The translations under genes were made by a program, and so were the position numbers. The notes beneath the pieces are model-generated. The model did no database searches. It was not told the DNA's origin and was given only the letters and a program-made list of their open reading frames with translations. Source: a virus. From it: a DNA stretch of 33,537 nt. Shown piece by piece: positions 1 through 15,201 of the stretch. Position 1 is the first letter of the stretch; every line of letters begins with the position of its first letter. The stretch is from the IMG/VR virus record IMGVR_UViG_3300034082_001922, positions 1 through 33,537 of that record, one strand, 5' to 3'.

Positions 1-2
1 GG

Positions 3-476
3 CGTATAATTCCTAGGTCAGTGGATTTTATTTGGTGTCACGATACCTTTCAGTACGTTACCAATCCAATGGAAAGCCTTGGGTTATGGAATGAACAAAT
101 GAATGTGAACGGTATGCTGATGTTGATATTTCCGCAATCTACATATTATGCATACAATAGATATCAAGCTCGCAGCCACAGTGGTTGCTATTATAATCAT
201 AATATTATAAACTTGATGTACATGTTGGCAGTCAATGGATTTGATTGTCGTGATGCATATTTTCTCAAAGAAGAAAATGATCCGTGGTTGTATGCAGCGG
301 TGTATAAATCGGACATTGCACCAATGGATCCAAAAACAACATCATGGTATGATCTGGCTGATCTTAACTTGTTGAGCGATAGTGTAGTTGATTGTCTTAC
401 TAGATTTGGACATGTCAGACAAGAAGAGATAGTCACTGCCTGGCTAGACAAAGACTTTCATTATCCTAAAGAATGA
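3..476 (+). CDS. SAM-dependent methyltransferase, C-terminal part (5'-truncated by window edge)
   Basis: The reading frame is open through the left edge of the window, so this is the 3' part of a gene that begins upstream; a GTG at 21 is internal rather than a start. The visible segment begins at the DFIWCHDTFQYVTNP stretch, which matches the region after the SAM-binding motifs of class I methyltransferases (acidic strand, then a 'bad-message' hydrophobic loop). It is followed by a NGMLMLIFPQ strand like the usual 'pGG.l.i..P' motif. The SAM-binding glycine loop is off-window. The substrate cannot be told; the neighbouring glycan genes make a sugar or lipid methylation plausible. Its stop overlaps the next start as ATGA. 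Confidence 0.6.
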   Translation, partial: RIIPRSVDFIWCHDTFQYVTNPMESLGLWNEQMNVNGMLMLIFPQSTYYAYNRYQARSHSGCYYNHNIINLMYMLAVNGFDCRDAYFLKEENDPWLYAAVYKSDIAPMDPKTTSWYDLADLNLLSDSVVDCLTRFGHVRQEEIVTAWLDKDFHYPKE

Positions 477-853
477 AACGGCTTGTTTTTTTGTTGTTAC
501 TTTTACCACTGTGGGCGTCAGCTGAATGGCTGCCGTTGGCCAAAGAAGATACGCTAGACGTATATTGGGATCCAGACACACTAATGTCTCGTGATGCCAA
601 CCGCACTGTGTTGATTCTAATCAACAATCTTAAAAAAACCAAACAAGATAAAGAAGCTTCTGTTATAGCTCAAGCTGAGTTAAACTGCGATAAACATGTG
701 CTCAGATATCAGGGCAGTAAAAGTTACACTAGAATTATGGGAAAAGGTACCGAAATATCAGAATTAGCTACATCAAAATATACAACATGGTTTAAAGTTC
801 CACCGAGCAATTATTTTGAAAGTTTTTTGATGTTTAATGCATGTAGAAACTAA
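473..853 (+). CDS. Secreted surface-adhesin E-like small protein
   Basis: A 126-aa protein with a clear Sec signal peptide: MKR, a run of leucines and phenylalanine, then a WASA|EW cleavage site near residue 17. The mature part has the pattern of the surface-adhesin protein E family (Adhesin_E): a WLPLAKEDTLDVYWDP opening, 'YWDPDTL' strand, a central 'AELNCD' cysteine segment and a final C near residue 124, which could pair as a disulfide in the periplasm. Start is the ATG of an ATGA overlap with the preceding gene. Adhesin_E proteins are typical of beta- and gammaproteobacteria, so a phage copy suggests acquisition from a host. The family assignment is by eye; the export signal is strong. 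Confidence 0.6.
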   Translation: MKRLVFLLLLLPLWASAEWLPLAKEDTLDVYWDPDTLMSRDANRTVLILINNLKKTKQDKEASVIAQAELNCDKHVLRYQGSKSYTRIMGKGTEISELATSKYTTWFKVPPSNYFESFLMFNACRN

Positions 854-936
854 AGCCTGGACACCAGGCTTTGTAGATATAATGCTGCTCTACGCTGTCT
901 TGACTCTATAATGGCCTGTAATATGCGTTGAATCAT
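850..936 (-). CDS. 28-aa arginine-rich microprotein
   Basis: A short minus-strand reading frame of 28 codons whose ATG overlaps the stop of the 55-aa gene upstream (ATGA at 933-936), the same coupling used by most genes here. The product begins MIQRILQAIIESRQRRAA, an amphipathic basic helix of a type common among tiny phage and proteobacterial proteins. Its last codons run through the hairpin at 852-872, and its stop overlaps the end of the convergent plus-strand gene by four bases. No function is known to me. Support is the start-stop overlap and helical composition only. Confidence 0.45.
   Translation of the reverse strand: MIQRILQAIIESRQRRAALYLQSLVSRL
852..872. terminator. Bidirectional hairpin between convergent genes
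   Basis: AAAGCCTGG (852-860), loop ACA, CCAGGCTTT (864-872): a perfect 9-bp stem with a 3-base loop. It sits at the junction of the plus-strand adhesin-E-like gene and the minus-strand pair. Flanking T runs are only three bases on each side, so it may be a weak terminator or mainly an RNA 3'-end stabiliser. Confidence 0.55.
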
Positions 937-1100
937 AGTCCTAGATACCGTTCGTTGCTGTAAGTCCATTGTTGAATCCAGTGCTCTACATCAGCTGCTG
1001 ACTTAGGATCTTTGCTTGCAATATATTGTTCTACATCGCTTTTGTATTGACTGGGGAACATTTCCTGTAGACGTTGTTTGAGGCTGTTAAAGTTGATCAT
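933..1100 (-). CDS. Conserved-type small phage protein (55 aa)
   Basis: A 55-aa acidic/helical protein beginning MINFNSLKQRLQEMF and ending ERYLGL. The start at 1100 was chosen because GGAAAAC lies just before the ATG and a late-type promoter box lies 20 bases upstream (1128-1120). A longer frame back to 1397 would run through the opposite gene and the divergent promoter region. Contains a tryptophan-rich 'VEHWIQQWTYS' segment. The function is unknown. It is likely co-transcribed with the 28-aa gene that follows. Confidence 0.6.
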   Translation of the reverse strand: MINFNSLKQRLQEMFPSQYKSDVEQYIASKDPKSAADVEHWIQQWTYSNERYLGL

Positions 1101-1119
1101 GTTTTCCTTTAGTATACTA

Positions 1120-1128
1120 GTATTTATG
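1120..1128 (-). promoter_or_regulatory. T4-late-type promoter box, minus strand
   Basis: CATAAATAC read on the minus strand, 7 of 8 bases of the T4 late consensus TATAAATA followed by C. It lies 20 bases before the 55-aa gene, leaving room for its ribosome binding site. It is back-to-back with the plus-strand late box at 1164, so this 77-base gap is a divergent late promoter region. Confidence 0.5.
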
Positions 1129-1163
1129 TTGTACTGCAACATATAAACAGAATACTTAAAAAT

Positions 1164-1172
1164 AATAAATAC
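1164..1172 (+). promoter_or_regulatory. T4-late-type promoter box, plus strand
   Basis: AATAAATAC, 7 of 8 matches to TATAAATA, only four bases before the ATG of the 508-aa gene. T4 late transcripts usually start about 5-7 bases past the box, so the mRNA should begin at or just inside the start codon (leaderless or nearly so). Confidence 0.45.
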
Positions 1173-1176
1173 ATTC

Positions 1177-2703
1177 ATGCGCGAAATTATTAATATCATA
1201 ACTGAAAGCCGCGGTCTTGGTGCCAGACGTCCTGGAGAGATCTTTGTTAATGCTGCTGGCGACGAAATACGAGTTAACACAGTCAACTTTTTTCCCGAAG
1301 GTGGTGGACAATTCCAAACTGCAGAAGAAACGCAAGATGCCGTTGATGCAGTAGTGCAACAACTGGGAGTCGCTCCAGAATCAGTAAATCGTCCCACCGC
1401 AGGAACATTGGCATTTGGTATTGCTGTATTTGATAGTGATACTGGTATTCTTGCCTACTTAAAATACTTTAAGACAGTACATCCTGATCCCACACAAAAT
1501 GACTGGAACAATCAAACAGGAATTCCAGGATTCAAATACAATTCAACTGCAGCCAAAAAAACTCAAAGCAGTGCAACGCCGCAGGATATTCTGACTCAAC
1601 AAGAAGATTTGACCGCTGAAGCTATTGCAATGCAAGTTGCAGCAAAGTTTCCAAATAGTACATTGGCTGAAGTGGCAATGCACTTGGCCAGAGGCGGTGA
1701 GTTACCTTATACATTTGCAGCACCAGTTGAAATGGATATTGGTGCATTCCAAGATTATTTTTGTGAACTGTTGCAGCCAATTGCATTACAAACAGGCCAG
1801 TACGACGGTGAAGCTCAAGACGCTGAAGCAATATTTTTACCTGAAGGCGGATATGCAACAGCATTGATCAGCTTTGGTAAGAACAAAACTGAAGGACTCA
1901 GTGATAGCGTAATGATTGGTCCTGATGGACGCAAGATGAAGGTCAGCAGCAAAGGTGGAAAAGGGGCCGATGCCAGTACCAAGAATTTATTGGACTGCGT
2001 GGCAGAATTAAAACAAACACCCACTGGTGAAAAATTGGTCAAGAAGTTTAAAAACACCATTGAGATATTAGAAACAGTTAAAAACAGTGGACAATCATTG
2101 GCACCATTGGTATTAGGACAACGATACGGTGTCATTGACGAAGGTGATGCCCAACTGGTGGTTAGTATTAAAAAAATGCCCTTGGTTGATATTACTAACA
2201 CCAAGAAACTAAAAATGCTTACGCCTACCTTACGCAAACTGGCAGAGCAACGTAGTACAAAAAATCCAACTAACACAAATTTATACTTTCATTTGATGGC
2301 AGCAATAGCTCACAGTGTGGCCGAACATGTGCGAGAGAACACCAGTTTTAACAAAGACGCTGCTGCTATTTTAAATAACAGTGCTCTAGTACAGGTATAT
2401 TCAAAAGTAACTGCGCGAGGCGATCAGTGGACATTGAACAAGTTCACGAGCAAATGGCCCGGTAGTGCAGTTACCACAGTAGAATTTAGTGCTGACAAAG
2501 GGTATTACAGCACAGGTATCAACGGTAACTTTACCTTTGCAGTTGATCCACCTAAAAAGAGTAAAGGTAGCAATTCTGAACAACCTGCCCCTGTGGCCAA
2601 GATGAAAGACCCAGAAGCTAGCATGAGTGCAGATAGGATCATTCGCCCCGGACGCCGCGCCGAACCACGTGACAAAGATTCCACCCCAAGACAAAAACGA
2701 TAA
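1177..2703 (+). CDS. Large phage protein of unknown function (508 aa), possibly virion-associated
   Basis: Starts MREIINIITESRGLGARRPGEI, a helix-turn opening often seen on large-phage virion and internal proteins. The middle holds 'VSSKGGKGADASTKNLLD' (about residues 249-266), a lysine/glycine loop that looks functional, and the tail is a low-complexity, basic, proline-rich segment (roughly 450-508) that is probably disordered. No signal peptide, membrane segment or known enzymatic motif was recognised. The late-type promoter box directly ahead argues for late expression, which fits a structural or packaged protein, but this is inference. It precedes the radical SAM gene by 8 bases. No SD is visible before the ATG. 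Confidence 0.7.
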   Translation: MREIINIITESRGLGARRPGEIFVNAAGDEIRVNTVNFFPEGGGQFQTAEETQDAVDAVVQQLGVAPESVNRPTAGTLAFGIAVFDSDTGILAYLKYFKTVHPDPTQNDWNNQTGIPGFKYNSTAAKKTQSSATPQDILTQQEDLTAEAIAMQVAAKFPNSTLAEVAMHLARGGELPYTFAAPVEMDIGAFQDYFCELLQPIALQTGQYDGEAQDAEAIFLPEGGYATALISFGKNKTEGLSDSVMIGPDGRKMKVSSKGGKGADASTKNLLDCVAELKQTPTGEKLVKKFKNTIEILETVKNSGQSLAPLVLGQRYGVIDEGDAQLVVSIKKMPLVDITNTKKLKMLTPTLRKLAEQRSTKNPTNTNLYFHLMAAIAHSVAEHVRENTSFNKDAAAILNNSALVQVYSKVTARGDQWTLNKFTSKWPGSAVTTVEFSADKGYYSTGINGNFTFAVDPPKKSKGSNSEQPAPVAKMKDPEASMSADRIIRPGRRAEPRDKDSTPRQKR

Positions 2704-2711
2704 TTATTAGT

Positions 2712-3560
2712 ATGCAACGACCTACTCTAGAAATCACAACCATGATTGGTTGTCCTCTGATGTGTAACTTCTGTCCTCAAGACAATCTACGTGATGCTTA
2801 CGGAGATGATGTCAAATACATGACCTTGGACACATTCAAAACTGCACTAAGTAAAGTGCCCAGCAATACCAGAATTGATTTTAGTGGCATGGCAGAAGTA
2901 TGGGTAAATCCTGCAGCCACTGACATGTTCGAACATGCGTTAGTGTCTGGTTTTAATATTGCAGTGTACACAACCTTGTACAACTGGACCATAGAAACTG
3001 CAGAACGTGTTTGCAAATTGTTATATCGTTACCGCGGACAGGTAGAAACGTTTAGTGTGCATTTTCCCGACGAGTATGGCAACATGAAGGGCTGGAAACA
3101 CAGCGCAGAATGGGAAGCAGTATTCCACATGATGACAGAAGCTGTTCAGGATTGCCGCATCAAGCTAGAAGCAATGACCATGAGTGATCACGGTCGGATA
3201 CACAAAGATTTGCAGCATCTTGGAATCCAACTGTACAACTGGTTTGGGCATGATCGCGCTGGCAGCCTTGACAAGAATCAAGTCAAGGAACAACCAATCA
3301 AGTTTGTCACTGAACATGTCCAACCAGTCAGATGCAGCAAGACCATCAACTATGACCAACATGTGTTGTTACCAAATGGTGATGTTGTGTTATGTTGTAT
3401 GGACTACGATAACAAACACGTAATTGGTAATCTAATTACTCAATCTTACCAAGACCTGTTTACTGGACCAGGCATGATGACGCTAATAAAAGAAAATATC
3501 AAGCCCTGTTATAGTTCAAAAACCCTGTGTAAGAGTTGCACAGATGCTGAATTTTATTGA
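2712..3560 (+). CDS. Radical SAM protein with SPASM-like C-terminus
   Basis: 282 aa. The radical SAM cluster motif CxxxCxxC is at C14-C18-C21 (GCPLMCNFCP), which would bind a [4Fe-4S] cluster and cleave SAM to a 5'-deoxyadenosyl radical. The C-terminal third has 'LPNGDVVLCCMDY', 'VIGNL' and a later C..C..C cluster (C270, C275, C278 approximately), typical of SPASM/Twitch auxiliary-cluster domains that modify peptides or proteins or act in sugar chemistry. No precursor-peptide gene is recognisable next door. Radical SAM enzymes need a reductant; the ferredoxin gene about 1 kb downstream is a candidate. The stop codon is inside the -35 box of the next promoter. The substrate is unknown. Confidence 0.85.
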   Translation: MQRPTLEITTMIGCPLMCNFCPQDNLRDAYGDDVKYMTLDTFKTALSKVPSNTRIDFSGMAEVWVNPAATDMFEHALVSGFNIAVYTTLYNWTIETAERVCKLLYRYRGQVETFSVHFPDEYGNMKGWKHSAEWEAVFHMMTEAVQDCRIKLEAMTMSDHGRIHKDLQHLGIQLYNWFGHDRAGSLDKNQVKEQPIKFVTEHVQPVRCSKTINYDQHVLLPNGDVVLCCMDYDNKHVIGNLITQSYQDLFTGPGMMTLIKENIKPCYSSKTLCKSCTDAEFY

Positions 3561-3585
3561 CATTAAACACGGATAGTTGTATACT
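3557..3585 (+). promoter_or_regulatory. Sigma70-type promoter with overlapping palindrome
   Basis: TTGACA (3557-3562), 17-base spacer, TATACT (3580-3585): near-perfect sigma70 match. The -35 contains the TGA stop of the radical SAM gene. The spacer and -10 are covered by a perfect inverted repeat at 3567-3593. Likely drives 3613-6604. Confidence 0.75.
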
Positions 3586-3593
3586 ATCCGTGT
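3567..3593. promoter_or_regulatory. Perfect 11-bp inverted repeat over the promoter (candidate operator)
   Basis: ACACGGATAGT (3567-3577), 5-base centre, ACTATCCGTGT (3583-3593). The repeat spans the spacer, the whole -10 box and the expected transcription start. There is no T run after it, so it is a poor terminator. Its placement fits a repressor operator or a 5'-end hairpin of the transcript. Confidence 0.5.
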
Positions 3594-3612
3594 ACTCCTT
3601 ACTTTAATTACT

Positions 3613-3792
3613 ATGACAAAAATTTATATTGCAATGGCAGAGATGTCGGATGGTAACCGTATCTTTGAACGTGCATACACTACTCGTGCAGCCGCCGAAG
3701 CAGCTATAGTAGTCATGATTAAAGAAATTGATGAAAATACCAATTGGGAAGTTGTTCCGGTAGTTGAGGAGATAGAGTTAGTGGACAATTAA
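3613..3792 (+). CDS. Small phage protein of unknown function (59 aa)
   Basis: Begins MTKIYIAMAEMSDGNRIFE and ends with an acidic valine-rich tail (VVEEIELVDN). ATG at 3613 is preferred over an upstream TTG at 3577 because the predicted transcript starts near 3592. There is no convincing SD. First gene behind the palindromic promoter. The opening is a beta strand followed by an alanine-rich helix, which is compatible with a small alpha/beta fold. The function is not recognised. Confidence 0.65.
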   Translation: MTKIYIAMAEMSDGNRIFERAYTTRAAAEAAIVVMIKEIDENTNWEVVPVVEEIELVDN

Positions 3793-3793
3793 G

Positions 3794-4342
3794 ATGTTCT
3801 TGTATCAGACTGTTCAATTCAAGAGAGTTAGAACTATAACCAGTAAATTGTTGACAATCGCACAGCAACAAAACGTAGAGTTAAAATCAACCATGCAGTT
3901 TGATACTGGTCTACTTGATGACCAGGTACCTGAGTTAGTTGAACAATTCAATGATATGGGACTAAAAGTGCAAATATTTAGAGAATTTATTTCTATGCCC
4001 AATCAAGGAATACATGTTCACCAGGATGGTAGTGAACAAAATCCTAAACATCTTGCAATCAATTGGCCAATTAAAAATTGCACAGGAACTTATATGTGCT
4101 GGTGGGAATACCGTGATTTACCAATAATTGAATCTGTGTTTTATGATCCAATTGATAAAAACAAAACTCCGCATAACTTTTATTCCCAAGATACAGCCAC
4201 TAAAATTGGAGAATGTGAAATTGTTACACCAACGTTGGTTAATATCAATCAGTATCATTCAGTTCAGAATACTAACGCTGTTAGAAGAATGATAAGTTTT
4301 AGATTTGAGCAGGAACCTTTTAATTTAATATATGATAAATGA
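3794..4342 (+). CDS. 2OG-Fe(II) dioxygenase-like protein
   Basis: 182 aa. The metal-binding triad of the 2-oxoglutarate/Fe(II) oxygenases is visible: H-Q-D in 'IHVHQDG' near residues 75-77, then a distal H in 'INQYHSVQN' near 154. An arginine in 'RRMISFRF' about ten residues later would bind 2-oxoglutarate. Between them are strands 'AINWPIKNC' and 'TYMCWWEY' of a double-stranded beta helix. Family members hydroxylate proteins, nucleic acids or small molecules; no substrate can be named. The start follows the previous stop by one base, and the 3' end overlaps the MazG-like gene by 11 bases. Base composition is more AT-rich than its neighbours. Confidence 0.6.
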   Translation: MFLYQTVQFKRVRTITSKLLTIAQQQNVELKSTMQFDTGLLDDQVPELVEQFNDMGLKVQIFREFISMPNQGIHVHQDGSEQNPKHLAINWPIKNCTGTYMCWWEYRDLPIIESVFYDPIDKNKTPHNFYSQDTATKIGECEIVTPTLVNINQYHSVQNTNAVRRMISFRFEQEPFNLIYDK

Positions 4343-4616
4343 TCAACTGACAGAAACATTAGTTATCACTCAAGAAGAGTGTGCTGAAGTAATACAAGAA
4401 ATATCTAAAATTTTTAGATTTGGTATAGACGAAATGCACAAATCTGGAATTGTTCATCGACGCAAATTAGAAATGGAAGTAGGTGATCTGTTGTGCATGA
4501 TAGACTTACTACTAGTACAGGGTATTATTAGTCAATCTGGATTAGATCTTGCCAAGGAACATAAAAAAAACAAACTCAAAATTTGGAGTAATATATTTAA
4601 AGAGGAAGCAGAATGA
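4332..4616 (+). CDS. MazG-like NTP pyrophosphohydrolase
   Basis: 94-aa all-alpha protein with the metal-binding signature EExxE (E15, E16, E19, in '[11 protein letters not shown]') and ExxD (E49, D52, in '[12 protein letters not shown]'). These are the defining residues of the MazG/dUTPase-like all-alpha NTP pyrophosphatases. Such phage enzymes hydrolyse nucleoside triphosphates to monophosphates and are thought to tune nucleotide pools or alarmone signalling during infection. The start overlaps the oxygenase gene and the end overlaps the ferredoxin gene by ATGA. Confidence 0.75.
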
Positions 4617-4939
4617 CCTATGTAGTAACCGAAGCATGTATCAAATGTAAATATACTGATTGTGTCAGTGTATGTCCGGTAGACTGTTTTTACGAAGGGC
4701 CAAATTTTTTAGTGATCAATCCAGACGAATGTATTGACTGTGCAGTGTGTGTGCCCGAATGTCCGGTGAATGCCATTGTGCCTGACAACGATACAGACAT
4801 ACCAAACCTAGTACATTGGTTAGAAGTTAACAGTACGTTAAGCAAAGTATGGCCCACTATAACAAAACGTAAAGATCCATTAGCAACTGCCGAAGAATTT
4901 AAAGACATCAAAGACAAACAACATTTATTGGAGAAATAA
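4613..4939 (+). CDS. fdxA: 7Fe ferredoxin (FdxA type)
   Basis: 108 aa, very close in length and sequence to Azotobacter ferredoxin I. The cysteines match ligand for ligand: C9, C17 and C50 for the [3Fe-4S] cluster and C21, C40, C43 and C46 for the [4Fe-4S] cluster, with the conserved non-ligand C12 and C25. The stretch '[15 protein letters not shown]' is diagnostic, and the FdI-type C-terminal tail ('[12 protein letters not shown]') is complete. It is a cytoplasmic one-electron carrier. In this context the partners could be the radical SAM enzyme upstream or the RfbH-type dehydrase of the minus-strand operon; both are inference. It appears to be a host-derived auxiliary metabolic gene. Confidence 0.93.
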
Positions 4940-5328
4940 TGACTGAACTGTATCGAGGATTACTATCTGTATTGAATCAAAAATTCAATGAGCTACTGGC
5001 TGAACTCAGAGATCATGTCAGAGGTTTCAAGAAAAAAACTACAGACGACAACAACTATCTGGATGTTGGCGTTATGGGATTTTGGAATTTTATGCTTGAA
5101 ATAATTTTTACCTTGTACGGACTTACATGTTATGCTGTTGGTATCACATTGACCGCGGCTCTGGCGATAGCATGCTATCCATTGTCTGCTTTGATTAACA
5201 GTTGTGCTTTGGTGTTGAAAAATACACGGCATCCAGAGTCACACTCAATTACAAATCAACAAACAGAGTCGGAGTTGACTCAATCACCAGTTATTATGAA
5301 AAAAGGAAAACAAAATAATGGATTATAA
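4939..5328 (+). CDS. Small membrane protein, two helices
   Basis: 129 aa. A charged N-terminal helix (1-45) is followed by a hydrophobic stretch of about 40 residues (about 46-92) that can form two membrane helices, [18 protein letters not shown] and [15 protein letters not shown] with neighbours. The hydrophilic tail is rich in Q, S and T. No family was recognised. Start overlaps the ferredoxin stop by one base (TAATG) and its end overlaps ahcY by 11 bases, so it is co-translated with these genes. Confidence 0.65.
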
Positions 5329-6604
5329 AGTTGCAGATATTGCCCTAGCTGCTTGGGGTCGTAAAGAAATTGCTATTGCAGAGATTGAAATGCCAGGACT
5401 GATGGCAGTGCGTAACAAGTATCGTGCCAGCAAGCCCTTGTTAGGAGCACGGATTACTGGTAGTTTACACATGACTATCCAGACTGCAGTACTAGTTGAA
5501 ACGTTAATTGACCTTGGTGCTGAAGTAAGATGGTCAAGCTGTAATATCTTTAGCACTCAAGATCATGCTGCAGCAGCCCTGGCAGTTCAGGGCATTCCGG
5601 TGTTTGCATGGAAGGGCGAAACCGAAGAGGAATATTGGTGGTGTATTGAGCAAACAGTACGCGGTCCGGATGGTTGGACACCTAATCTACTATTAGATGA
5701 TGGACATGATTTGACTGCATGGGTACATGATCGTCATCCTGATCTATTACCAGCTATCATTGGCGTCAGCGAAGAAACCACAACTGGTATTCATAAACTG
5801 ATAGAACGTATTGCAGCAAGTACTCTAAAAATTCCAGCCATTAACGTCAACGACTCAGTCACCAAATCAAAATTTGATAACTTGTATGGTTGTCGTGAAA
5901 GCCTAGTGGATGCAATTAAACGTGCCACAGATGTAATGATAGCTGGCAAGACTGCAGTGGTATGTGGTTACGGTGATGTAGGCAAAGGATCGGCGCAGGC
6001 CCTACGTGCATTAAGTGCGCAAGTTTGGATCACTGAAGTTGATCCTATCTGTGCATTGCAGGCAGCGATGGAGGGATACCGCGTGGTAACTATGGATTAT
6101 GCCATGGACAAAGCAGATATCTTTGTCACTGCCACTGGTAACATTGATGTTGTTACTCGTGAGCATATGAATCATATGAAGAACAATGCTATTGTGTGCA
6201 ATATTGGACACTTTGATAGTGAAATTGATATTGCTGGATTGAGTGATTGTGCCTGGGACGAGATCAAGCCCTTGGTAGATCATGTCACGTTACCTAACGG
6301 AAACAAACTGATTATTTTGGCCAAAGGGCGCCTGGTAAACCTAGGATGTGCAACTGGGCATCCTAGTTATGTAATGAGCAACAGTTTTACTAATCAGGTG
6401 CTTGCACAGATTGAACTGTGGACCAATCATACAAAATATAGTAAAGTAGGAATTTATCTACTGCCCAAGCATGTGGATGAGGAAGTTGCTCGACTGCACC
6501 TAGATCATGTAGGTGCTAAATTAACTGGCTTAACTTCTAAACAAGCACACTACATTGGTGTGCCTGTTGAAGGTCCGTACAAGCCAGATACCTATAGGTA
6601 TTAA
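5318..6604 (+). CDS. ahcY: S-adenosylhomocysteinase
   Basis: 428 aa, full length for the short form of SAH hydrolase. Seen: the N-terminal '[11 protein letters not shown]' and '[16 protein letters not shown]' substrate-domain motifs, '[21 protein letters not shown]', the NAD-binding '[14 protein letters not shown]', and the terminal '[10 protein letters not shown]' that closes the NAD site. The enzyme splits SAH into adenosine and homocysteine and relieves product inhibition of SAM-dependent methyltransferases, of which this window has three. The ATG follows AAAAGGAAAAC, a usable SD. The stop shares the sequence TTAA with the stop of the convergent sugar operon, so both transcripts meet with no spacer. 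Confidence 0.95.
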
Positions 6605-7554
6605 TATATAAAGTTTTTCTTGTAGTAATCTACAATTTCAACTAGTTCAGTTTCAAACACAGCCTGGGGTTTCCACCCTAGGCTTTTTAATTTGCTGTCA
6701 TCAATGGCATAACGTACATCTTGTCCAGGTCTAGTAATATCAAGGTCCATATGAGCATCGTGATCCGCATGCTCGGCAAAGAACATGTCAATAATCTTCA
6801 TGGCAATCATGATGTTTTGTTCTTCATGATTGCCTGAGATGTTGTAAATTTCATTTTGCACGCCGGACTCAATGATCTTTATAACAGCACTGGCAGTGTC
6901 ACTCACATGCAACCAAGTACGACTAGGCAAGCCAGCATCATGTAGCGCAATGGGTCTGCCCAGAGTCAAGTGTTTGATACTCTTGGGAATAAACTTTTCG
7001 GTGTACTGCCCAATGCCGTAGTTGTTGGTAGGCCTTACAATGATATACGGCACTCGGAATGTACGTGCCCACGCCAGGATCAACATGTCTGCTGCAGCTT
7101 TGGTTGCCGAATACGGATTACTGGGCTTGAGTAGATCTGTTTCTACATGACTGCCTGTTACAATGTCTCCGTACACTTCGTCTGTGCTAAAGTGCAACAA
7201 GGTAGGCATCTTGAACCTGTGTCGTTCCTTGATCAAGTTTAACAAATGATGTACACCGTTTACATTACTTTGCAAAAATACATCACTGCTCACAATGCTG
7301 TTGTCCACGTGGGTTTCAGCAGCAGTGTTAATAATATAGTCACAGTCATATAGCATGTCAAGATCATTGATATCTGACTCAATAAACTTAAATTGTTGCT
7401 GGTATCCTTGCAATTCCAGTAAGAAATGCACGTTTGCGGCATAGGTTTTCTTGTCAACGCCTATAACATAGTACCCTGCCTGTAAACATTGTTTAGTAAC
7501 GTGATAACCAATAAACCCCAAACAGCCAGTGACGTATACTACTTTGGTACTCAT
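6601..7554 (-). CDS. NDP-glucose 4,6-dehydratase (RmlB/RfbG-like SDR)
   Basis: 317-aa extended SDR. N-terminal Rossmann motif is '[10 protein letters not shown]'; '[11 protein letters not shown]' matches the 'aAESHVDrS' of RmlB; 'FSTDEVYGD' supplies the T-D-E catalytic set of 4,6-dehydratases; 'YSATKAAAD' is the YxxxK. It converts an NDP-hexose to the 4-keto-6-deoxy sugar. In an operon with an RfbH-type dehydrase the expected substrate would be CDP-glucose, but the sequence alone cannot separate CDP- from dTDP-glucose. It is the last gene of the minus-strand operon and starts by ATGA overlap with the preceding SDR. No cytidylyltransferase (RfbF) is present in the window. Confidence 0.85.
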
Positions 7555-8348
7555 ATGTAATCCTTTAATCCTTGTATGAATCCTCTAAGAGGAAAATTTA
7601 ATTGTGACAGTTGGTTGGCACAGCCGGTGTAGTTGTTTGAAGCTGTGCCAACGATAGTTAAATCTGTTTTAATGTGATGTAATTCTTGAAATAGGCTAAA
7701 AATCTCACTGAGTAGATATTTTTGTGGATATACGCAATTGACATCTTTATGTATATTGTTATTTAAGTATTGCTTGACCACTATACAGAAATCATCCAAT
7801 GAAATATAATCAACATATCTGTCAATGATGTCTACTGAGGATTGTTTGATAAATTTTTGAAACAGTCTATGATTTGGCTCACTGCGATTAAAACAGCCAA
7901 ATAATCTTAAAGTAACAAAGTTTTCTTTCTTGGCTGCTAATCTGGCAATAATGTTTTTACTGTACCCGTAACTGTCTTTTGGTTGTTTTAAGAATATGTC
8001 ATGTTCGTTGGCACTATTAATATCAGTTGTTCGGTCAAACTCAGCTCCGCTGCCAACGTTGATAAATTGATCAAATAGATCACTGTTGTTGTAAAAATTC
8101 ATGAATATATCAAGATTATTCTGCACATCCTGATACACAAAATCTGTAGTTTGAAAACGACCAGTTGCAGTGGCACAGTTGATAATAGTATTTGGCTTGA
8201 CCAATTGTAACCATGAGCGCACCTGTTGATAATTTGTAAGATCAACAGTTTGTCGCGTAACTGGTATAACAGTCAGCAAATCCATGGCCAATGATGCTGT
8301 CAGGTATTTTCCTATATAGCCATTGGCTCCTAGTACTGCAACTTTCAT
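7551..8348 (-). CDS. SDR-family nucleotide-sugar reductase/epimerase
   Basis: 265 aa with N-terminal 'GANGYIGKYL' (NAD(P)-binding), 'NCATATGRF' strand end and 'DSYGYSKN' YxxxK catalytic pair. It is shorter than 4,6-dehydratases and lacks the T-D-E set, so a 4-keto reductase or epimerase is more likely. Placed directly after the TPP enzyme it occupies the position of the reductase (YerF-like) that would finish a branched-chain dideoxysugar; this role is inferred from context. Start and stop both overlap neighbours by four bases. Confidence 0.7.
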   Translation of the reverse strand: MKVAVLGANGYIGKYLTASLAMDLLTVIPVTRQTVDLTNYQQVRSWLQLVKPNTIINCATATGRFQTTDFVYQDVQNNLDIFMNFYNNSDLFDQFINVGSGAEFDRTTDINSANEHDIFLKQPKDSYGYSKNIIARLAAKKENFVTLRLFGCFNRSEPNHRLFQKFIKQSSVDIIDRYVDYISLDDFCIVVKQYLNNNIHKDVNCVYPQKYLLSEIFSLFQELHHIKTDLTIVGTASNNYTGCANQLSQLNFPLRGFIQGLKDYI

Positions 8349-10114
8349 TTAATACCTAGTTCTACTAGAGTAGCATCTTCAAGAAACGGAAACATAGCAT
8401 CTAAACTGCCGCTGACAATTTTACCATCAGCGTCTCGACGACTTTGTACTCGTGGAATCAACAGTTGATCACGTACCATGTTTACTTCAATCAGCACAGG
8501 CCCGTCTTTTTTTAATAAGTTCTCCAAACCATCTTGTACATTTTGCATCGTGGACAGACGATACGCAGGAATTCCATACGCCGCTGCCACACGAACAAAG
8601 TCTGGACTGCTGACACCCGAGCCAGGATCTGCACCAAATCTTTTACCATGGAACAAGTTATCTTGCATCAAGCTAATGGCCAATAATCCGTTGTTGTTTA
8701 ACACAATGATCTTGATTGGCAATTTGTTATGCACAACAGTCTGTAACTCTTGTATGTTCATTTGAAAGCCACCATCACCAGCAATGCATATTACACGCTG
8801 ATCCGGATCAGCCAAACAAGCACCAATTGCGCCTGGTAAACCAAATCCCATTGAACACAATGCACTGCTGGTAAACAGCCTATCACGGCCTGTATGTCTT
8901 AGTGCTTGCATGGTACAAGTAAAACTAGTACCCATGTCGGTGACTACCACGTCGTTGTGTTGCAGGCAGGTGCCCAGGTGTTGAATAAAATCAAAACTGT
9001 TCACGTGATCTACGTCACGCACATGATTCTCATCAAACACGCTCAGACGTTGCTTCCAAGACAGAACTAATTCGTGCCAGGCTGGTCTAATAGGATTATT
9101 GTATTTGTCTGACAGGTCTGATATAAACTGTTTGACATCGCCCACCACCGGGTGGTCAATATCTAACGTGTGTTTGTGTATTTCGTTTGAGTCATGGTCC
9201 ACCATTATCTTTACACTGTTGGGTGCAAAATCTTTGCTGTTGTAACCTGTCACGGGAATACTGAGTCTACTGCCCAGGATCAATAACAAATCTGCCTGTT
9301 GCACAGCAAAGTTTCCTGCCCGCTCACCCAGCAAGCCAAAATTTCCTACATACAACGGATCTGAGTATTCAAATAGATCCTTGGCATTCCAGGTGCATAC
9401 CACAGGAATTTGCAACTGATCAACCAATGTTTTAAATTCTATTTCAGCATTGGCAAGATGAATACCGTTACCGGCTATAATCAACGGACGTTGCGCATTG
9501 GCAATTGCATCAAGTATTGGCTGGCTGACTAAATTTTTATTACTTGCTGTATAAGGTACAAAGTCGTGTTGATGTTCTGTCTCAACGGTTTCGGCTTGTA
9601 GATCAATTGGAATATCCAACCAAGTTGGTCCCATACGTCCGGTAGTGGCCAAGTGCCAGGCTCGCTCAACTTCTTGTCTGACAGAATCAGCATGATACAA
9701 TTGCACAGCGTAATTGGTACAATGTTGTACCATGCGTACAATACCTGCTTCCTGCAAGCCCAATTGTCTAAGTTCTGCAACCGGCTCGGCCGACAAGGTT
9801 TGGTGTCGCGGTACTTGTCCGCTTATTACTATCATGGGGATACTGTCTTGCCAGGCACCTAGCACTCCAGTTATGGCATTACTTGATCCAGGACCGTTGG
9901 TAACTAGTACCAGTGCAGGTTTTTTAGCAATTCTAGCATAACCATCTGCAGCCATTGCGCAAGCCTGTTCGTTGTAATTATGTATCACAGTGATTCCAGA
10001 TGCCCTGACGCTTTCCATTAAATGTGCAGCAGCACCACCAGTGATACAAAACACAGTATCAATGCCTTTTTCCTGCAATAACTTTATAATATAATCGCTG
10101 ACTTTAATTTTCAT
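8345..10114 (-). CDS. Acetolactate-synthase-like ThDP enzyme (YerE-like candidate)
   Basis: 589 aa, three-domain thiamine-diphosphate enzyme. Catalytic glutamate E49 is in 'NYNEQACAMAADGYAR'; 'VTNGPGSSNAITGV' follows; the ThDP-binding GDG...NN motif runs from 'AGDGGFQMN' to 'VLNNNG' near the C-terminus. Ordinary acetolactate synthase belongs to branched-chain amino acid synthesis, but here the gene lies between RfbH-type dehydrase, cupin and SDR genes. Yersinia YerE, an enzyme of this family, adds a two-carbon unit from pyruvate to CDP-3,6-dideoxy-4-keto-glucose in yersiniose synthesis, so a similar reaction is the best guess. No regulatory small subunit (IlvN) is present. Confidence 0.85.
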   Translation of the reverse strand: MKIKVSDYIIKLLQEKGIDTVFCITGGAAAHLMESVRASGITVIHNYNEQACAMAADGYARIAKKPALVLVTNGPGSSNAITGVLGAWQDSIPMIVISGQVPRHQTLSAEPVAELRQLGLQEAGIVRMVQHCTNYAVQLYHADSVRQEVERAWHLATTGRMGPTWLDIPIDLQAETVETEHQHDFVPYTASNKNLVSQPILDAIANAQRPLIIAGNGIHLANAEIEFKTLVDQLQIPVVCTWNAKDLFEYSDPLYVGNFGLLGERAGNFAVQQADLLLILGSRLSIPVTGYNSKDFAPNSVKIMVDHDSNEIHKHTLDIDHPVVGDVKQFISDLSDKYNNPIRPAWHELVLSWKQRLSVFDENHVRDVDHVNSFDFIQHLGTCLQHNDVVVTDMGTSFTCTMQALRHTGRDRLFTSSALCSMGFGLPGAIGACLADPDQRVICIAGDGGFQMNIQELQTVVHNKLPIKIIVLNNNGLLAISLMQDNLFHGKRFGADPGSGVSSPDFVRVAAAYGIPAYRLSTMQNVQDGLENLLKKDGPVLIEVNMVRDQLLIPRVQSRRDADGKIVSGSLDAMFPFLEDATLVELGIK

Positions 10115-10785
10115 TTTTGAATAATCATAATAATAATAGTGTTATCTTCAACTCCGTCCATTTCAGCAACTACTTGTTGAACCACTTTAACTTGCCCAAC
10201 ATCTCCAGGCATAATTGCTCGATGGGTTCGGCCGTTGATAGTTTTAATAACACCGCCTTGTAGAAAAATAATTATATTTTCTGGATTACTAGTATTAAAA
10301 ATTGAAGTATCAGATATACGATGGACACTCAGGCTGCAGCCACCAATTTCAAATTGAGCACTAGACACTGGATCATTGATCCATAGACAATCTTCGTTCT
10401 TGGGTAACTCAAATTGTGACCCTTCGTAGCCAACATTGGCGCGGCCATATTTGTCGTGTAATCTAATTAGATCATCTTTGTCTACCGGAGTTTCAATTTC
10501 AAACATCATAACACCGTGGTCACTGATAGCATGAGTCTGGTGAAATAAACCTCTACGTATCATTTGTTTAGCTGGTGCAGTTAATATTTTACTATCAGCG
10601 ATAAAATTAATTTCTGCTGTTCCGTCTAATACCACCAATCCCGTGGACTTGCTGGGATGACAATGCATGCTGGTTTTCTCACCGGGCAGTATATGCAGCA
10701 TCCATAATGCTACATCTGCATTTTGATATGCTAGATATTCATAACCCCATGGTTTTCGAACTATGACAGTGGTATGATCAACCAT
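10111..10785 (-). CDS. Bicupin-like sugar enzyme
   Basis: 224 aa with two cupin-like halves. The first has the metal site 'GEKTSMHCHPSKSTGLVVLDG' (HxH with E replaced, then G) ending at 'RGLFHQTHAI' for the second His. The second half repeats a 'iflqGgv...i.....mPGDV' pattern near residues 170-200. Resembles type II phosphomannose isomerase/nucleotide-sugar cupins ('PWGYEYLAY' near the start is the usual 'pWG.e' entry). It probably isomerises, epimerises or shields a keto-sugar intermediate of this operon, but the reaction is unknown. Overlaps both neighbours. Confidence 0.65.
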   Translation of the reverse strand: MVDHTTVIVRKPWGYEYLAYQNADVALWMLHILPGEKTSMHCHPSKSTGLVVLDGTAEINFIADSKILTAPAKQMIRRGLFHQTHAISDHGVMMFEIETPVDKDDLIRLHDKYGRANVGYEGSQFELPKNEDCLWINDPVSSAQFEIGGCSLSVHRISDTSIFNTSNPENIIIFLQGGVIKTINGRTHRAIMPGDVGQVKVVQQVVAEMDGVEDNTIIIMIIQK

Positions 10786-11323
10786 ACTTCTTTTTATATA
10801 AATCTAAAGTGTCTTCCATCCATTTGCCCATGTGATCGTAATGTGGGCTGGAAACAATATTGCGGTCAATCACCGACGGCTGGTCAACAAAAGTTGCACC
10901 TGCATTAATGACATCGTCCTTCATACCATAATATGCACTAATGTTGCGTCCCAAAACAACCTTTGACGAAATTAATAATTGGGCTCCACTACATGTGCTG
11001 GCAATTATTTTTCCTTTGCTATTCCACTCATAAACAAAGTCCAATACTGATTTTACTTGTCTTAGTTTTTCCATGGCCTTAACTCCGCCGGGTATAACTA
11101 GTAAATCATACTCAGTCATGTAGTGCTGTAAATTTTCAACAAAATCTTTAATTAATATAGTGCAAGGCATGTTTAAACCAAGAATACCATAAACACGCCC
11201 TTGGCCATCTTGTTTGTCAGCAACCACATCAACAGAAAAATTGGCAGCAAGCAATCTATAATACGGGTAGACTAACTCATGATCTTGAAAACCGGTGTTG
11301 GTAATAATTAATGCTTTTTTCAT
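10778..11323 (-). CDS. DJ-1/PfpI family protein
   Basis: 181-aa protein with the DJ-1 family nucleophile elbow 'IASTCSGAQLL' (C111) and the conserved glutamate near the start (E16 in 'GFQDHELVYPYY') that contacts it. 'DLLVIPGG' is the usual strand-loop before the active site. The family includes glyoxalase/deglycase-type enzymes and hydratases acting on reactive carbonyls. In an operon that makes keto-sugars with pyruvate chemistry, scavenging of reactive aldehydes or modification of a keto intermediate is possible. No evidence separates these. Confidence 0.75.
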   Translation of the reverse strand: MKKALIITNTGFQDHELVYPYYRLLAANFSVDVVADKQDGQGRVYGILGLNMPCTILIKDFVENLQHYMTEYDLLVIPGGVKAMEKLRQVKSVLDFVYEWNSKGKIIASTCSGAQLLISSKVVLGRNISAYYGMKDDVINAGATFVDQPSVIDRNIVSSPHYDHMGKWMEDTLDLYKKKYG

Positions 11324-11331
11324 AATTTTCC

Positions 11332-12651
11332 TTAAACAAATAAACTCATAAAACCATCAACTTTTTCACCAATGTAGGCAATTTGCTCTGGTGTAATAAC
11401 AGGACTGGTACCATGAAAGTAAGTGTGAGTCATGGCATGTGTGGCATTTGGAAAATTATCTCTTGCTATAGCAGGATCCATCAAATGGCTGTATGCTGGT
11501 TGTAACATGATGTTACCAGCAAAGTAAGGCCTGGTCTGAATTAAGTTTTCTTCCAAATACTCAACCAAATCGCTACGTTTAAACGGCGCATCTTTGCGTA
11601 CAGTCAACGGAAAAGCAAACCAGCTGGGATCTGACTTTGCTTGTGCTCTGGGCAAATGAAAGAACTGCTCGTGCTTTTCGTAGATATCAAACAGCAATTG
11701 ATAGTTGCGTCGTCGAAGACTGTGTATTTCTGGTAATTTTTTAAGTTGCTGCATGCCCATGGCACACTGTAATTCAATTGGTTTTAGATTATAGCCAATT
11801 TCGTCGTACACGTACTTGTGATCAAAAATTTCCCCTGGTAATTCCGGGATCCATTCTTGAAAACGCTGTCCACAGGTACCGCACTTTAATTTGTTAGCTT
11901 CTGGTCCTACACAGTAACAACCACGCCCCCATTCGCGGAAGCTACGCAAAATAACATCAGTGTTGGCATCGTTGGTGGCCACATAGCCACCTTCTCCCAT
12001 GGTCATATGATGTGCAGGATAAAAACTACAGCTGGCCATTAGGCCAAAGCTACCTAACGGTTTACTGTCGTAAGTGCTGCCTAATGCATCACAACAATCT
12101 TCTAACAGTATCAGTTCATATTTTTTAACCAAAGCCATGACACGATCCATGTTGGGAGGATTGCCCAACACATGTGCAAATGTGATAACTCGTATGTCAG
12201 GATTATTGGCAAGTATTAGTTCACATTGATCCACATCAAGATTAAGTGTATCAAGTTCGATGTCTACAAAAACAGGAACAAAGCCAACTTGTAGTGTGGG
12301 ATTGAGTGTGGTGGGAAAGCCTGCAATAGGCATTAACACCTTGGTGCCTTTGGGCAAGTTGTAACCACGTTTGCTGGTCAGCGCACTCATCATCAGCAGG
12401 TTACTTGAACTGCCAGAGTTGGTAACAATGCCTCGAGTCTTGCCAAACTGTTTGGGGAATTCGCGTTCAAAGTTTAACCCTTGATTGCCCATGGCAAGCC
12501 AACCGTCAAGCAAGCTTGCAACACCAGCCACGTATTCGTCAGAATCGTAATAGGCACCAGCATAGTTAACAAAGTCTTTGCCTGCAGTCCAGGTCTTGTT
12601 TGCTTGTTTTTGTTCGATGTGTTGCTTGACTAAATCTAGAATTTCTTTCAT
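11332..12651 (-). CDS. rfbH: RfbH/E1-type CDP-4-keto-6-deoxyglucose 3-dehydrase
   Basis: 439-aa DegT/DnrJ/EryC1/StrS-family PLP protein. The catalytic lysine of aminotransferases is replaced by histidine in 'FYPAHHMTMGEGG' (H214), the hallmark of dehydrases E1 (RfbH/DdhC) and ColD. The iron-sulfur cysteines of E1 are also present: C187, C245, C247 (C-x57-C-x-C spacing) and C260 in 'GTCGQRF', the last after a five-residue insertion; 'DHKYVYDEIGYNLK' is E1-like. E1 uses PMP and a [2Fe-2S] cluster to remove the C3 hydroxyl of CDP-4-keto-6-deoxyglucose. The usual reductase E3 is not in the window. Confidence 0.9.
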   Translation of the reverse strand: MKEILDLVKQHIEQKQANKTWTAGKDFVNYAGAYYDSDEYVAGVASLLDGWLAMGNQGLNFEREFPKQFGKTRGIVTNSGSSSNLLMMSALTSKRGYNLPKGTKVLMPIAGFPTTLNPTLQVGFVPVFVDIELDTLNLDVDQCELILANNPDIRVITFAHVLGNPPNMDRVMALVKKYELILLEDCCDALGSTYDSKPLGSFGLMASCSFYPAHHMTMGEGGYVATNDANTDVILRSFREWGRGCYCVGPEANKLKCGTCGQRFQEWIPELPGEIFDHKYVYDEIGYNLKPIELQCAMGMQQLKKLPEIHSLRRRNYQLLFDIYEKHEQFFHLPRAQAKSDPSWFAFPLTVRKDAPFKRSDLVEYLEENLIQTRPYFAGNIMLQPAYSHLMDPAIARDNFPNATHAMTHTYFHGTSPVITPEQIAYIGEKVDGFMSLFV

Positions 12652-12652
12652 A

Positions 12653-13381
12653 TTAATAAGTGGCTAAGTGAATGTTCCATGGATCGTGTTGCACCTTCAT
12701 ACCAAATTTTGAAAACAACACATCTAGACTCCGGTCAGAGTACATACAGACATGTCCGTTTCTTGGACTCAAATACCAAAATGCAGGATCACGTCGTCCT
12801 TGCATGATACCAGTACTGCAAGTTGCTAACAGTATTGAACCACCTGGTGCTAACCAACTGTGCATTTCCGCTAATGTTTCTATGGGAGTAGGAGTATGTT
12901 CGAGTACTTCCCATGCCATGATCAAATCAAATTTCTTATCAGCTGGCCAGTTTGGATCAGTACCCCACATTGGATCCCAACTATCAACTGTGTATCCGTG
13001 TTTGGCCAGTTCCTGACTCAACACAGCTGGACCAGCGCCATAGTCTAGTATACTAAGATCCTTGCTTATTTGCAAGCGATTGAGAAAATATTGGGCGTCA
13101 TTGACGCTTCTTTTGCCGTCATATTCAGGATCAACCACAATATAGTCATCGTTGTAAATAAGATCTTTAAAGTCGTCTTTGCTCCAAGCATCAAAATCTG
13201 GGCTGAACAAGTATTCGCAGTGATTGCATTTTAAGTAGTAAATGGCTACACCGGTATACGGCAAGTACATGCCGTTGCGTTCTTCGCAGTTTTTATTAAA
13301 ATCCACACACCCCCATATGGAAGTGTCGTGATTGCAAATTTTGCACTTTACTTCAGAGTAATTGACAGTTGACAATCTCAT
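12653..13381 (-). CDS. Zinc-binding SAM methyltransferase
   Basis: 242 aa. An N-terminal CxxC...CxxC (C13, C16, C52, C55) forms a probable zinc ribbon, followed by a class I SAM fold with motif I 'ILDYGAGPAVL' (111-121), acidic 'DSWDP' end of strand 2 and 'FDLIMAWEVLEHTPTP' as the motif after it. This resembles the Methyltransf_12/23 type found in sugar C- or O-methylation. Substrate is likely an activated sugar or a glycan made by this operon. It begins at an ATGA overlap with the GT34-like gene and ends one base before rfbH. Confidence 0.8.
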   Translation of the reverse strand: MRLSTVNYSEVKCKICNHDTSIWGCVDFNKNCEERNGMYLPYTGVAIYYLKCNHCEYLFSPDFDAWSKDDFKDLIYNDDYIVVDPEYDGKRSVNDAQYFLNRLQISKDLSILDYGAGPAVLSQELAKHGYTVDSWDPMWGTDPNWPADKKFDLIMAWEVLEHTPTPIETLAEMHSWLAPGGSILLATCSTGIMQGRRDPAFWYLSPRNGHVCMYSDRSLDVLFSKFGMKVQHDPWNIHLATY

Positions 13382-14037
13382 TTGATCACTTGCTCCAACA
13401 TGTTTTGGGCCAACACAATTCTTTTATCCAACGCCACAGCTGGCCAGTGAATCAAGAAATCACCTGGCTGCCATTGACCATCATTTCCAAGTAAATCCTT
13501 TTTATAGATATGCGGAACTAGGCCAGGATACTGATCGTAATCATACGAGTTCATGACACGCTGTGGGACAATTTTGATACGATCACCCATCATGTCAATG
13601 GTGTCAATCATGGCCGACTGGTCTAACCATTTTGCACCTGAATATGCCTCACGTAGACTCACAGTGTTGCGCAACCATGCAATGGTGTTGGGAGTGGCCC
13701 GTGCCAAAAAGCTGTCATTGTTGATATTGTAGCAATCAACAGCAATTACAAAATCATAATCGTCATCTACCAAATCTTCTAACCGAATATCAAAGTTAGT
13801 AATCATGGTGTCGCAACCTACTGCGTGGATCCAATCATATTTGCCAGACTCTAGTAGATCCGCAATGTAATTTGAACGTTCAAAACTAATATACTGTACT
13901 GGATGCTGAAACCCTTCAGTCATGGCAAGAGCATCATATCCCCATTTTTCGCAGTATAGTTTTTTATTTTGGTTCCATGTTATGTCTGCAAGTGGTTGAA
14001 ATTGTTCATTGTGTGCTGTTACAATAGCAAAATTCAT
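13378..14037 (-). CDS. GT34-like (GMA12/MNN10) glycosyltransferase
   Basis: 219 aa. Opening 'MNFAIVTAHNEQFQPLADITWNQNKKLYC' is the family's usual entry. 'YDWIHAVGCDTMITN' stands for the 'ydWi.wlDsDa.i.n' DxD region, although here the motif is G-C-D rather than DSD. 'PGDFLIHWPA' near the end matches the 'gDf.vHf.G' motif. GT34 enzymes are retaining galactosyl/xylosyl/mannosyl transferases. The altered DxD could change metal use. First gene of the eight-gene minus-strand operon; predicted promoter lies at 14064-14092. Confidence 0.65.
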   Translation of the reverse strand: MNFAIVTAHNEQFQPLADITWNQNKKLYCEKWGYDALAMTEGFQHPVQYISFERSNYIADLLESGKYDWIHAVGCDTMITNFDIRLEDLVDDDYDFVIAVDCYNINNDSFLARATPNTIAWLRNTVSLREAYSGAKWLDQSAMIDTIDMMGDRIKIVPQRVMNSYDYDQYPGLVPHIYKKDLLGNDGQWQPGDFLIHWPAVALDKRIVLAQNMLEQVIK

Positions 14038-14039
14038 CG

Positions 14040-14068
14040 TTGATTTCCAAAGTAGATAAGTGTATTAT
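14040..14068 (+). promoter_or_regulatory. Plus-strand promoter of the divergent pair
   Basis: TTGATT (14040-14045), 17-base spacer, TATTAT (14063-14068). It reads towards the GT17 gene, predicting a start near 14075. Its -10 lies on the same bases as the -10 of the minus-strand promoter. Confidence 0.5.
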
Positions 14069-14092
14069 ATATTTAATCTGCACAAAGATCAA
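14064..14092 (-). promoter_or_regulatory. Minus-strand promoter of the sugar operon
   Basis: On the minus strand: TTGATC (14092-14087), 17-base spacer, TATAAT (14069-14064), start expected near 14057. This is the only good promoter seen ahead of the eight tightly overlapping genes 14037-6601. TTTGGAAATCAACG precedes the first ATG, with GGAA as a weak SD. Confidence 0.6.
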
Positions 14093-14134
14093 CAGTTTTT
14101 TAATTCTAACATACAAAATACAGTAAGTACACAT

Positions 14135-14995
14135 ATGAAAATATACGATTGCTTTACCTTTTACAACGAATTTGATCTACTTGAATTACGACTACGTGAA
14201 TTGTACGACCACGTGGATCATTTTGTTCTAGTAGAAGCCAACAGGACATTCCAAAATCAACAAAAACCGTTCTATTATCAGGACAATGCTGAGAGATTTA
14301 AAAAATGGGCAGATAAAATAATACATGTAGCAGTCCAAGACATGCCCCAAGATACTGATGCATGGGGTAGAGAACGCTACCAACGCGACAGCATTGCTCA
14401 AGGCATTGCTGCTGCAGATCCGTTGGACATCATCATGATTGGCGATGTGGATGAAATTCCGCGGCCAGGCACTGTGCAACGATTACGCACTGCGCCGGGC
14501 TCGGTTTGGGGATTTAGAATGCCTTTGTTCAACTTCAAGTTCAACTACATGATGGTCACTCAAGACCTATACACAGTATGGTCCGGCGCAGTGCGTAAAC
14601 AGGTGTTGTCCAGCGCCGAGGACTTTCGTCGCATGCGACATGTGCTACACAGTTTTGCATTGAATCACAGTGATGGCAACATAGAAATCATTGAGCATGC
14701 TGGTTGGCACTTTACCTATTTGGGCACAGAAGATTTTGCTCGAAGCAAAATACAAAGTTTTGCCCATAGCGAAACAAACAAACCCGAAATACTTGACCAG
14801 CTGGATATTGAAGACAGTATCCGTAAAGGCACCGGCATCATTCGTACCAACAATGATTATCAATTTGCACTTGTGGCAATTGATGACTACTTGCCCGTTA
14901 CTTTGCTTGACAACCTGGCAGAGTTTGGGCAACATCTGATTGAACCGGCAAATAATACTCATTCAGCTAGACATTATCTTCCACCTATGCTATAA
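14135..14995 (+). CDS. GT17-family glycosyltransferase
   Basis: 286 aa. 'MKIYDCFTFYNEFDLLELRL' is the standard N-terminus of glycosyltransferase family 17 (beta-1,4-mannosyl-glycoprotein GlcNAc-transferase-like), and 'IMIGDVDEIPRP' is the DxD nucleotide-sugar/metal site. 'FALNHSDGNI' and 'GWHFTYLG' are further family motifs. The ATG at 14135 is chosen over 14060 because family members start at MKIYDC and the predicted transcript begins near 14075. The stop TAA sits inside the -10 box of the next promoter. Probably adds a sugar to the surface glycan or to a phage protein. Confidence 0.85.
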   Translation: MKIYDCFTFYNEFDLLELRLRELYDHVDHFVLVEANRTFQNQQKPFYYQDNAERFKKWADKIIHVAVQDMPQDTDAWGRERYQRDSIAQGIAAADPLDIIMIGDVDEIPRPGTVQRLRTAPGSVWGFRMPLFNFKFNYMMVTQDLYTVWSGAVRKQVLSSAEDFRRMRHVLHSFALNHSDGNIEIIEHAGWHFTYLGTEDFARSKIQSFAHSETNKPEILDQLDIEDSIRKGTGIIRTNNDYQFALVAIDDYLPVTLLDNLAEFGQHLIEPANNTHSARHYLPPML

Positions 14996-14996
14996 T
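14968..14996 (+). promoter_or_regulatory. Sigma70-type promoter inside the end of the GT17 gene
   Basis: TAGACA (14968-14973), 17-base spacer ending in TGC (extended -10), TATAAT (14991-14996). The -10 contains the stop codon TAA of the GT17 gene. It drives the 49-aa gene and possibly the operon beyond. Confidence 0.7.
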
Positions 14997-15021
14997 AGCA
15001 AATCAACCAACAGGAGGTTCT

Positions 15022-15171: not shown

Positions 15172-15175
15172 ATAC
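15167..15175 (+). promoter_or_regulatory. T4-late-type promoter box
   Basis: AATAAATAC, overlapping the stop codon of the 49-aa gene and 26 bases before the ATG of the next gene, which has GAGGAAAC as SD. It could give late expression of the glycan operon. Confidence 0.35.
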
Positions 15176-15201
15176 GTTTATTCAATAATTCCTGAGGAAA
15201 C

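Follow-up and report, generated by a model that had tools for sequence, protein, structure and literature searches.

A perfect 11-bp inverted repeat lies across a near-consensus sigma70-type promoter in the phage DNA studied here. Repeats of this length are rare at promoters of this group, and among the sequences examined this one is restricted to a single lineage, while the promoter beneath it is widespread. Given these observations, our tentative preference is for a lineage-specific operator with a putative partner protein. The site is a host-type sigma70 promoter, common in the phage group, that has acquired a perfect 27-bp palindrome in one lineage. Under our working model, a dimer-forming DNA-binding protein from either phage or host would occupy the palindrome and keep RNA polymerase from the -10 region. 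Expression of the downstream MazG/ferredoxin/SAH-hydrolase unit would thereby become repressible in this lineage.

The site and its surroundings

The window, by which we mean the whole stretch of DNA analysed, is a 33.5-kb IMG/VR virus record (IMGVR_UViG_3300034082_001922, positions 1-33,537). It is a fragment of a genome, with a G+C content of 41%, and encodes a UvsW-type helicase together with many sugar-modification genes. No named phage is close to it: megablast of positions 1-20000 returned no match, the radical-SAM protein matched four records at 29-31% identity and the ferredoxin matched six, with a top identity of 60%. There are no tRNA genes in the window, and an Rfam scan that included the SAH and SAM riboswitches gave no match at gathering score.

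Table 1. Elements of the promoter-palindrome site and genes on either side of it (window positions)
Feature	Positions	Strand	Remarks
Radical-SAM/SPASM protein, upstream anchor gene	2712..3560	+	Pfam: SPASM domain only; radical-SAM is our reading
-35 hexamer TTGACA	3557..3562	+	Overlaps TGA stop (3558-3560) of radical-SAM/SPASM gene
Perfect 11-bp inverted repeat, operator-like	3567..3593	.	5-nt centre; centred at 3580
-10 hexamer TATACT	3580..3585	+	Spacer 17 bp
Predicted 5' leader, no Shine-Dalgarno	3592..3612	+	Start site inferred from spacing
59-aa ORF, first after promoter	3613..3792	+	No Pfam/PHROG match
182-aa ORF	3794..4342	+	In viral_contigs only in two same-virus contigs
MazG-like pyrophosphohydrolase	4332..4616	+	Pfam and PHROG
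Ferredoxin (Fer4 and DUF3470)	4613..4939	+	Pfam
129-aa ORF	4939..5328	+	No assigned function
S-adenosylhomocysteine (SAH) hydrolase	5318..6604	+	Pfam

Measured against a sigma70-type promoter (TTGACA and TATAAT separated by 16-18 bp, with at most two mismatches), the segment at 3557-3585 has 17 bp spacing and one mismatch overall, none in the -35 and one in the -10 hexamer. The arms of the repeat, ACACGGATAGT (3567-3577) and ACTATCCGTGT (3583-3593), enclose the centre TGTAT (3578-3582). They overlap 13 of the 17 spacer bases and the entire -10 hexamer and extend to the predicted +1 (about 3592, from spacing), giving 3567-3593 the dyad symmetry over promoter elements that is expected of an operator. 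Since no T run lies 3' of the hairpin, where the next letters are ACTCCTTAC, it is not an intrinsic terminator. In all these respects the original prediction, a perfect palindrome laid over the spacer, -10 and +1 of a near-consensus promoter and followed by no T run, agrees with the sequence, the +1 being placed by spacing. The next ATG, at 3613, is 27 bases past the -10.

All ORFs from 3613 to 6604 are on the + strand and are close-packed or overlapping. The MazG-like protein scored 21.0 bits in Pfam, just below the cut-off of 22, and matched a PHROG family with an E value of 9e-19. In many relatives the 59-aa ORF and the MazG gene adjoin; the 182-aa ORF stands between them in this lineage only. 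SAH hydrolase is present in 6 of 55 relative loci and absent from 22 of the 26 that reach the next gene (an epimerase on the minus strand).

Three further places in the window drew our attention. Within 25323-25387, a terminator-like hairpin with 11-bp arms has a T run that merges into a TTGACT-17-TATAAT promoter, and this is followed by an ATG at 25385 in frame with ORF 25316-26548, an arrangement amounting to a promoter-terminator composite with a leaderless start. Three similar promoters at 23491, 23725 and 24170, with TTGACC or TAGACC, a CAATAATC-like spacer and GCTATAAT, are possibly a repeated promoter cassette. Finally, an 11-bp inverted repeat with an 11-nt loop lies inside the minus-strand epimerase gene (6802-6834).

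A widespread promoter and a private palindrome

A search with the radical-SAM protein yielded 57 loci, of which two (L005 and L006) are the contigs L003 and L004; 49 of the remaining 55 are readable beyond the radical-SAM gene. The full palindrome was found in IMG/VR (viral_contigs, a search that may omit records of the window's own genome) only in L003 and L004. Both are practically the same virus as the window, with matches of 99.99% across 8,345 bases and 100% across 3,872 bases. They carry different metagenome ids, and the palindrome is unchanged in both. A degenerate search for further close relatives, using the same gene end plus TGAC, returned the same two contigs only.

A sigma70-like promoter follows the radical-SAM gene in 42 of the 49 relatives, five of these calls (L013, L016, L022-L024) having a weak TGCACA -35 inside the gene; the other seven (L007, L008, L010, L020, L021, L050, L052) gave no promoter call. 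The overlap of -35 and stop codon seen in the window recurs in L009, L011, L012, L014, L015 and L017-L019. The window palindrome is found after the radical-SAM gene in none of the 49. The original prediction had named a promoter kept without its palindrome in close relatives as evidence against an operator, and this is largely what we observed, 37 of the 49 having a TTGACA or TTGACT promoter at the place and none of these 37 having arms longer than 7. L007, the relative closest to the window (protein identity 95%; DNA identity 85% across 2650-3782), does not fit that description, as it has neither promoter nor palindrome. Taken together, the comparison marks the promoter as a widespread element and the palindrome as a private one, at present a single-lineage feature. 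Because relatives keep the promoter without the palindrome, the latter would amount to no more than an ordinary, local control element. The suggestion that the promoter controls a unit of MazG-like, ferredoxin and SAH hydrolase genes is consistent with the position of these genes downstream, but an operator conserved for the unit is not supported; a private one is possible.

The comparison also reveals that the conserved promoter has a spacing that predicts leaderless mRNAs in the relatives. Of the 42 relatives with a promoter call, 27 have their first ATG 5-6 nt past the -10, compared with 27 nt in the window. In L025 a tRNA gene follows the ATG, which is perhaps not a start, and the L022 promoter is weak, which leaves 25 clear cases (L009, L011, L012, L014, L015, L018, L019, L027-L034, L036-L041, L044-L047). 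Transcription usually starts about 7 bases past the -10, so the mRNAs of these relatives would begin at or beside the AUG. Across the whole set there are 55 distinct strong promoters, 15 of which have an ATG that opens an ORF at this distance of 5-6 bases, against none of 17 in a reversed-box control; 14 of the 15 are the same promoter in different relatives and are therefore not independent, and the fifteenth is the promoter at 25350 in the window. A tRNA scan of 21 relatives showed that in 7 of them (L010, L016, L017, L025, L026, L035, L051) the radical-SAM gene is directly followed by a tRNA-Met gene.

Other palindromes occur at the same promoter place. A direct scan of the interval reaching 60 bases upstream and 140 bases downstream of the stop codon, with a separate test of the -10 region, showed that 14 of the 49 relatives carry differing palindromes there, over the -10 and mostly of 7 bp. 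The longest, in L013 (about 4955-4977, from the final base of the radical-SAM match onward), has perfect, A/T-rich 11-bp arms over the TATAAT of a weak promoter. Arms of 8 bp occur in L008 and L021 and arms of 7 bp in L022 and L024; these four palindromes, too, are A/T-rich and cover the TATAAT at the end of the radical-SAM gene. Nine loci of the L031 group (L031-L034, L036, L038-L041) have another palindrome with 7-bp arms, which is broken in L027 and L028. Arms of at least 7 over the -10 are present in 6 of 24 distinct loci, the window included, against 1.3 expected, and none of 400 shuffled sets reached 6. However, one A/T-rich core (ATATTAT..ATAAT), which in part encodes the end of the radical-SAM protein, is common to L008, L013, L022 and L024. 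These four are thus not independent, and the excess comes down to about three separate groups. Such a result keeps alive, and does not demonstrate, the idea that palindromes may have been built repeatedly on this promoter. A more far-reaching scenario, which we think improbable, is that the -10 is a fast-turnover place for palindromic control elements, where the window lineage would have turned a leaderless, apparently constitutive promoter into a repressible and leadered one, placing the unit under a regulator that its relatives do not use. The window, L013 and the L031 group would then be lineages bearing different palindromes on the same promoter.

Chance, partners and competing explanations

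Repeats with arms of at least 11 and loops of at most 9 averaged 0.1 per window in 40 Markov-resampled windows; the window has two, the repeat at 3567-3593 and the terminator-like hairpin at 25323-25348. The window and the 55 relative loci together have 188 distinct promoter-like sites; about 0.06 cases with arms of at least 11 were expected at these and one, that of the window, was observed, the other 187 having arms of at most 8 under this promoter rule (a looser rule adds L013). Arms of exactly 7 were seen six times at these promoters against 4.6 expected. A 1.54-Mb pool contained 95 distinct palindromes (arms of at least 10) and 392 strong promoters, with two palindromes overlapping a -10 box, those of the window and L184, whose promoters both fit the pattern that fetched part of the pool. 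Random placement would give about 0.75 such overlaps (an estimate from the counts), and palindromes thus show no clear enrichment at promoters in general.

These figures bear on the possibility that the palindrome is a neutral, recently arisen sequence, for example a template-switching palindrome or a small inserted hairpin with no function. Its restriction to one lineage and the near-random pool overlap speak for such an origin, as does the fact that the region is much longer in the window than in L007. Against it, only 4 of 20,000 shuffles that held both hexamers of this promoter fixed gave arms of at least 11, the -35, spacing and -10 are all intact, and the group has other palindromes over the -10. 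We consider this explanation rather unlikely.

A second alternative places the function of the palindrome in RNA. In mRNA that reads through from the upstream genes it would form a hairpin by which the upstream 3' end is stabilised or marked, whereas RNA started at the 3557 promoter would lack this hairpin. The 11-bp stem begins six bases past the radical-SAM stop codon within a same-strand gene run, and folding gave -18.8 kcal/mol over 91 nt (z -3.1), with 1 of 200 shuffles as stable. Any perfect palindrome folds in this way, however, the T run is absent, and none of the 49 relatives has a comparable hairpin after the stop; the A/T-rich hairpin of L013 comes nearest. We consider this role distinctly unlikely. 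Lastly, capture of a host-regulator binding site, such as SahR-type control of SAH hydrolase, might be suggested by the presence of SAH hydrolase in the unit and by the 20-bp palindromes described as SahR sites (PMC4239095), but the window order GAT-N11-ATC is the reverse of ATC-N10-GAT, the seven bacterial contigs with the central palindrome (below) are of unrelated taxa and the match in one of them drives no gene. We give this reading by far the least credence.

With regard to a partner protein, the original prediction saw no repressor in the window, and a Pfam scan of 40 window proteins, which included only part of the short ORFs, gave no match to a repressor family. A weak zinc-finger match at 30406-31110 scored 20.1 bits against a cut-off of 25.2. 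Other copies of the palindrome, for which the original prediction had proposed a search, were found neither in the window, a 33.5-kb fragment, nor in the two same-virus contigs; the nearest in-window match has 7 differences in 22 positions and is no better than those in shuffles.

Elsewhere, the core CGGATAGT-N5-ACTATCCG occurs in three more contigs (L065-L067), none of which has a promoter with two or fewer mismatches within 60 bases. The 18-base core was also found in genome_contigs, in seven bacterial contigs of unrelated taxa. Among these, the matches in L068, L069 and L074 are followed by T runs, and L070 has a promoter-like match through the palindrome (2 mismatches, 16 bp) that is antisense to both flanking genes and therefore drives neither; a scan of the L070 genome allowing up to 3 mismatches gave one further, imperfect, place. 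Relaxed searches of the viral and genome collections revealed no promoter-borne relative of the palindrome driving a gene, with the qualification that degenerate sites escape exact-pattern searches. When the whole promoter was compared with phages by BLAST, the result was one phage in two records (E 6), with no such palindrome by eye.

We also asked for the pattern TTGAC-N10-GATAGT-NN-TATACTATC, which carries the palindrome GATAGT-N5-ACTATC and was found in four other phage contigs (L077-L080). As the palindrome letters are fixed by the pattern, their identity in these contigs is not evidence of conservation. The matches in L078 and L080 precede an HTH_39 winged-helix gene, and 4 of the 9 free spacer bases differ. 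On the promoter of that gene, GATAGTGTTATACTATC (L078 5245-5276; L080 2320-2351) is a candidate autoregulatory operator. BLAST of the L078 promoter gave 15 records at E 0.9-3, which we read as chance similarity at the level of the promoter. In an open test that fixed only the promoter, AGT-N5-ACT and one C, there were at least 120 sites, 87 of them distinct; among the matches listed, at least 3 further pairs were present in 3 of the 87, against about 1.4 expected from re-paired halves. L184 is one of the three, with 12 further pairs. Relatives of the HTH_39 winged-helix protein were found neither in the window nor in loci below L068 (L078 and L080 served as positive controls). Given the lack of a clear excess in the open test and of a winged-helix relative in the window, we do not claim an operator family.

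The original reading as a repressor operator is partly supported. The palindrome has classical operator geometry, with its centre near -12, and fits chance poorly at this promoter, but neither conservation of its sequence nor a partner protein adds support. We count in its favor: (i) position; (ii) arm length; (iii) the conserved position of the promoter; (iv) identity in two same-virus records; (v) the excess of palindromes over the -10 and (vi) L184. Counted against it are absence from the 49 relatives, the lack of a second copy, of a repressor and of a promoter-borne relative, the open test of AGT-N5-ACT promoters with its unclear excess of longer palindromes, and the near-random overlap in the pool. 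If the palindrome is an operator, the locus would show the gain of one on a promoter whose other form persists in dozens of relatives.

Comparison with known systems

Operators that overlap the -10 of sigma70 promoters are bound by repressors of the TetR, LacI and lambda-cI kind. The site in the window resembles them in its dyad symmetry over spacer, -10 and start site. It differs from them in that no repressor or second operator was found.

There is also precedent for stem-loops near host-like promoters in phages. PeSLs were reportedly described by Comeau in 2014 and Arbiol in 2010. As cited in later papers (PMC4503421, PMC5931544), they are promoter-early/stem-loop composites of T4-like phages. 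The window resembles them in two ways: it has a stem-loop near a promoter of host-like type, and the phage encodes a UvsW-type helicase. By title, however, a PeSL is a promoter-terminator composite, whereas the stem-loop of the window lies over the promoter and is followed by no T run, so we do not class it with them on what these sources give. The common consensus of SamR and gamma-proteobacterial SahR is given as ATC-N10-GAT (PMC4239095); the half-sites of the window stand in the opposite order, a comparison made with that common consensus only.

Further likenesses come from phage contigs. L013 has, as does the window, perfect 11-bp arms over the -10 after a radical-SAM gene, but its palindrome is A/T-rich with a 1-nt centre, goes with a weak TGCACA -35 and lies partly in the coding end of the gene. 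L184 (IMGVR_UViG_3300035199_000626), a contig unrelated to the window phage, differs in having 15-bp arms of other letters and an unrelated downstream gene, SbcD-type phosphoesterase-like by eye; it shares with the window the arrangement, at 5582-5622 in reading orientation, of TTGACA-17 bp-TATACT and a perfect palindrome with a 5-nt centre over the spacer and -10.
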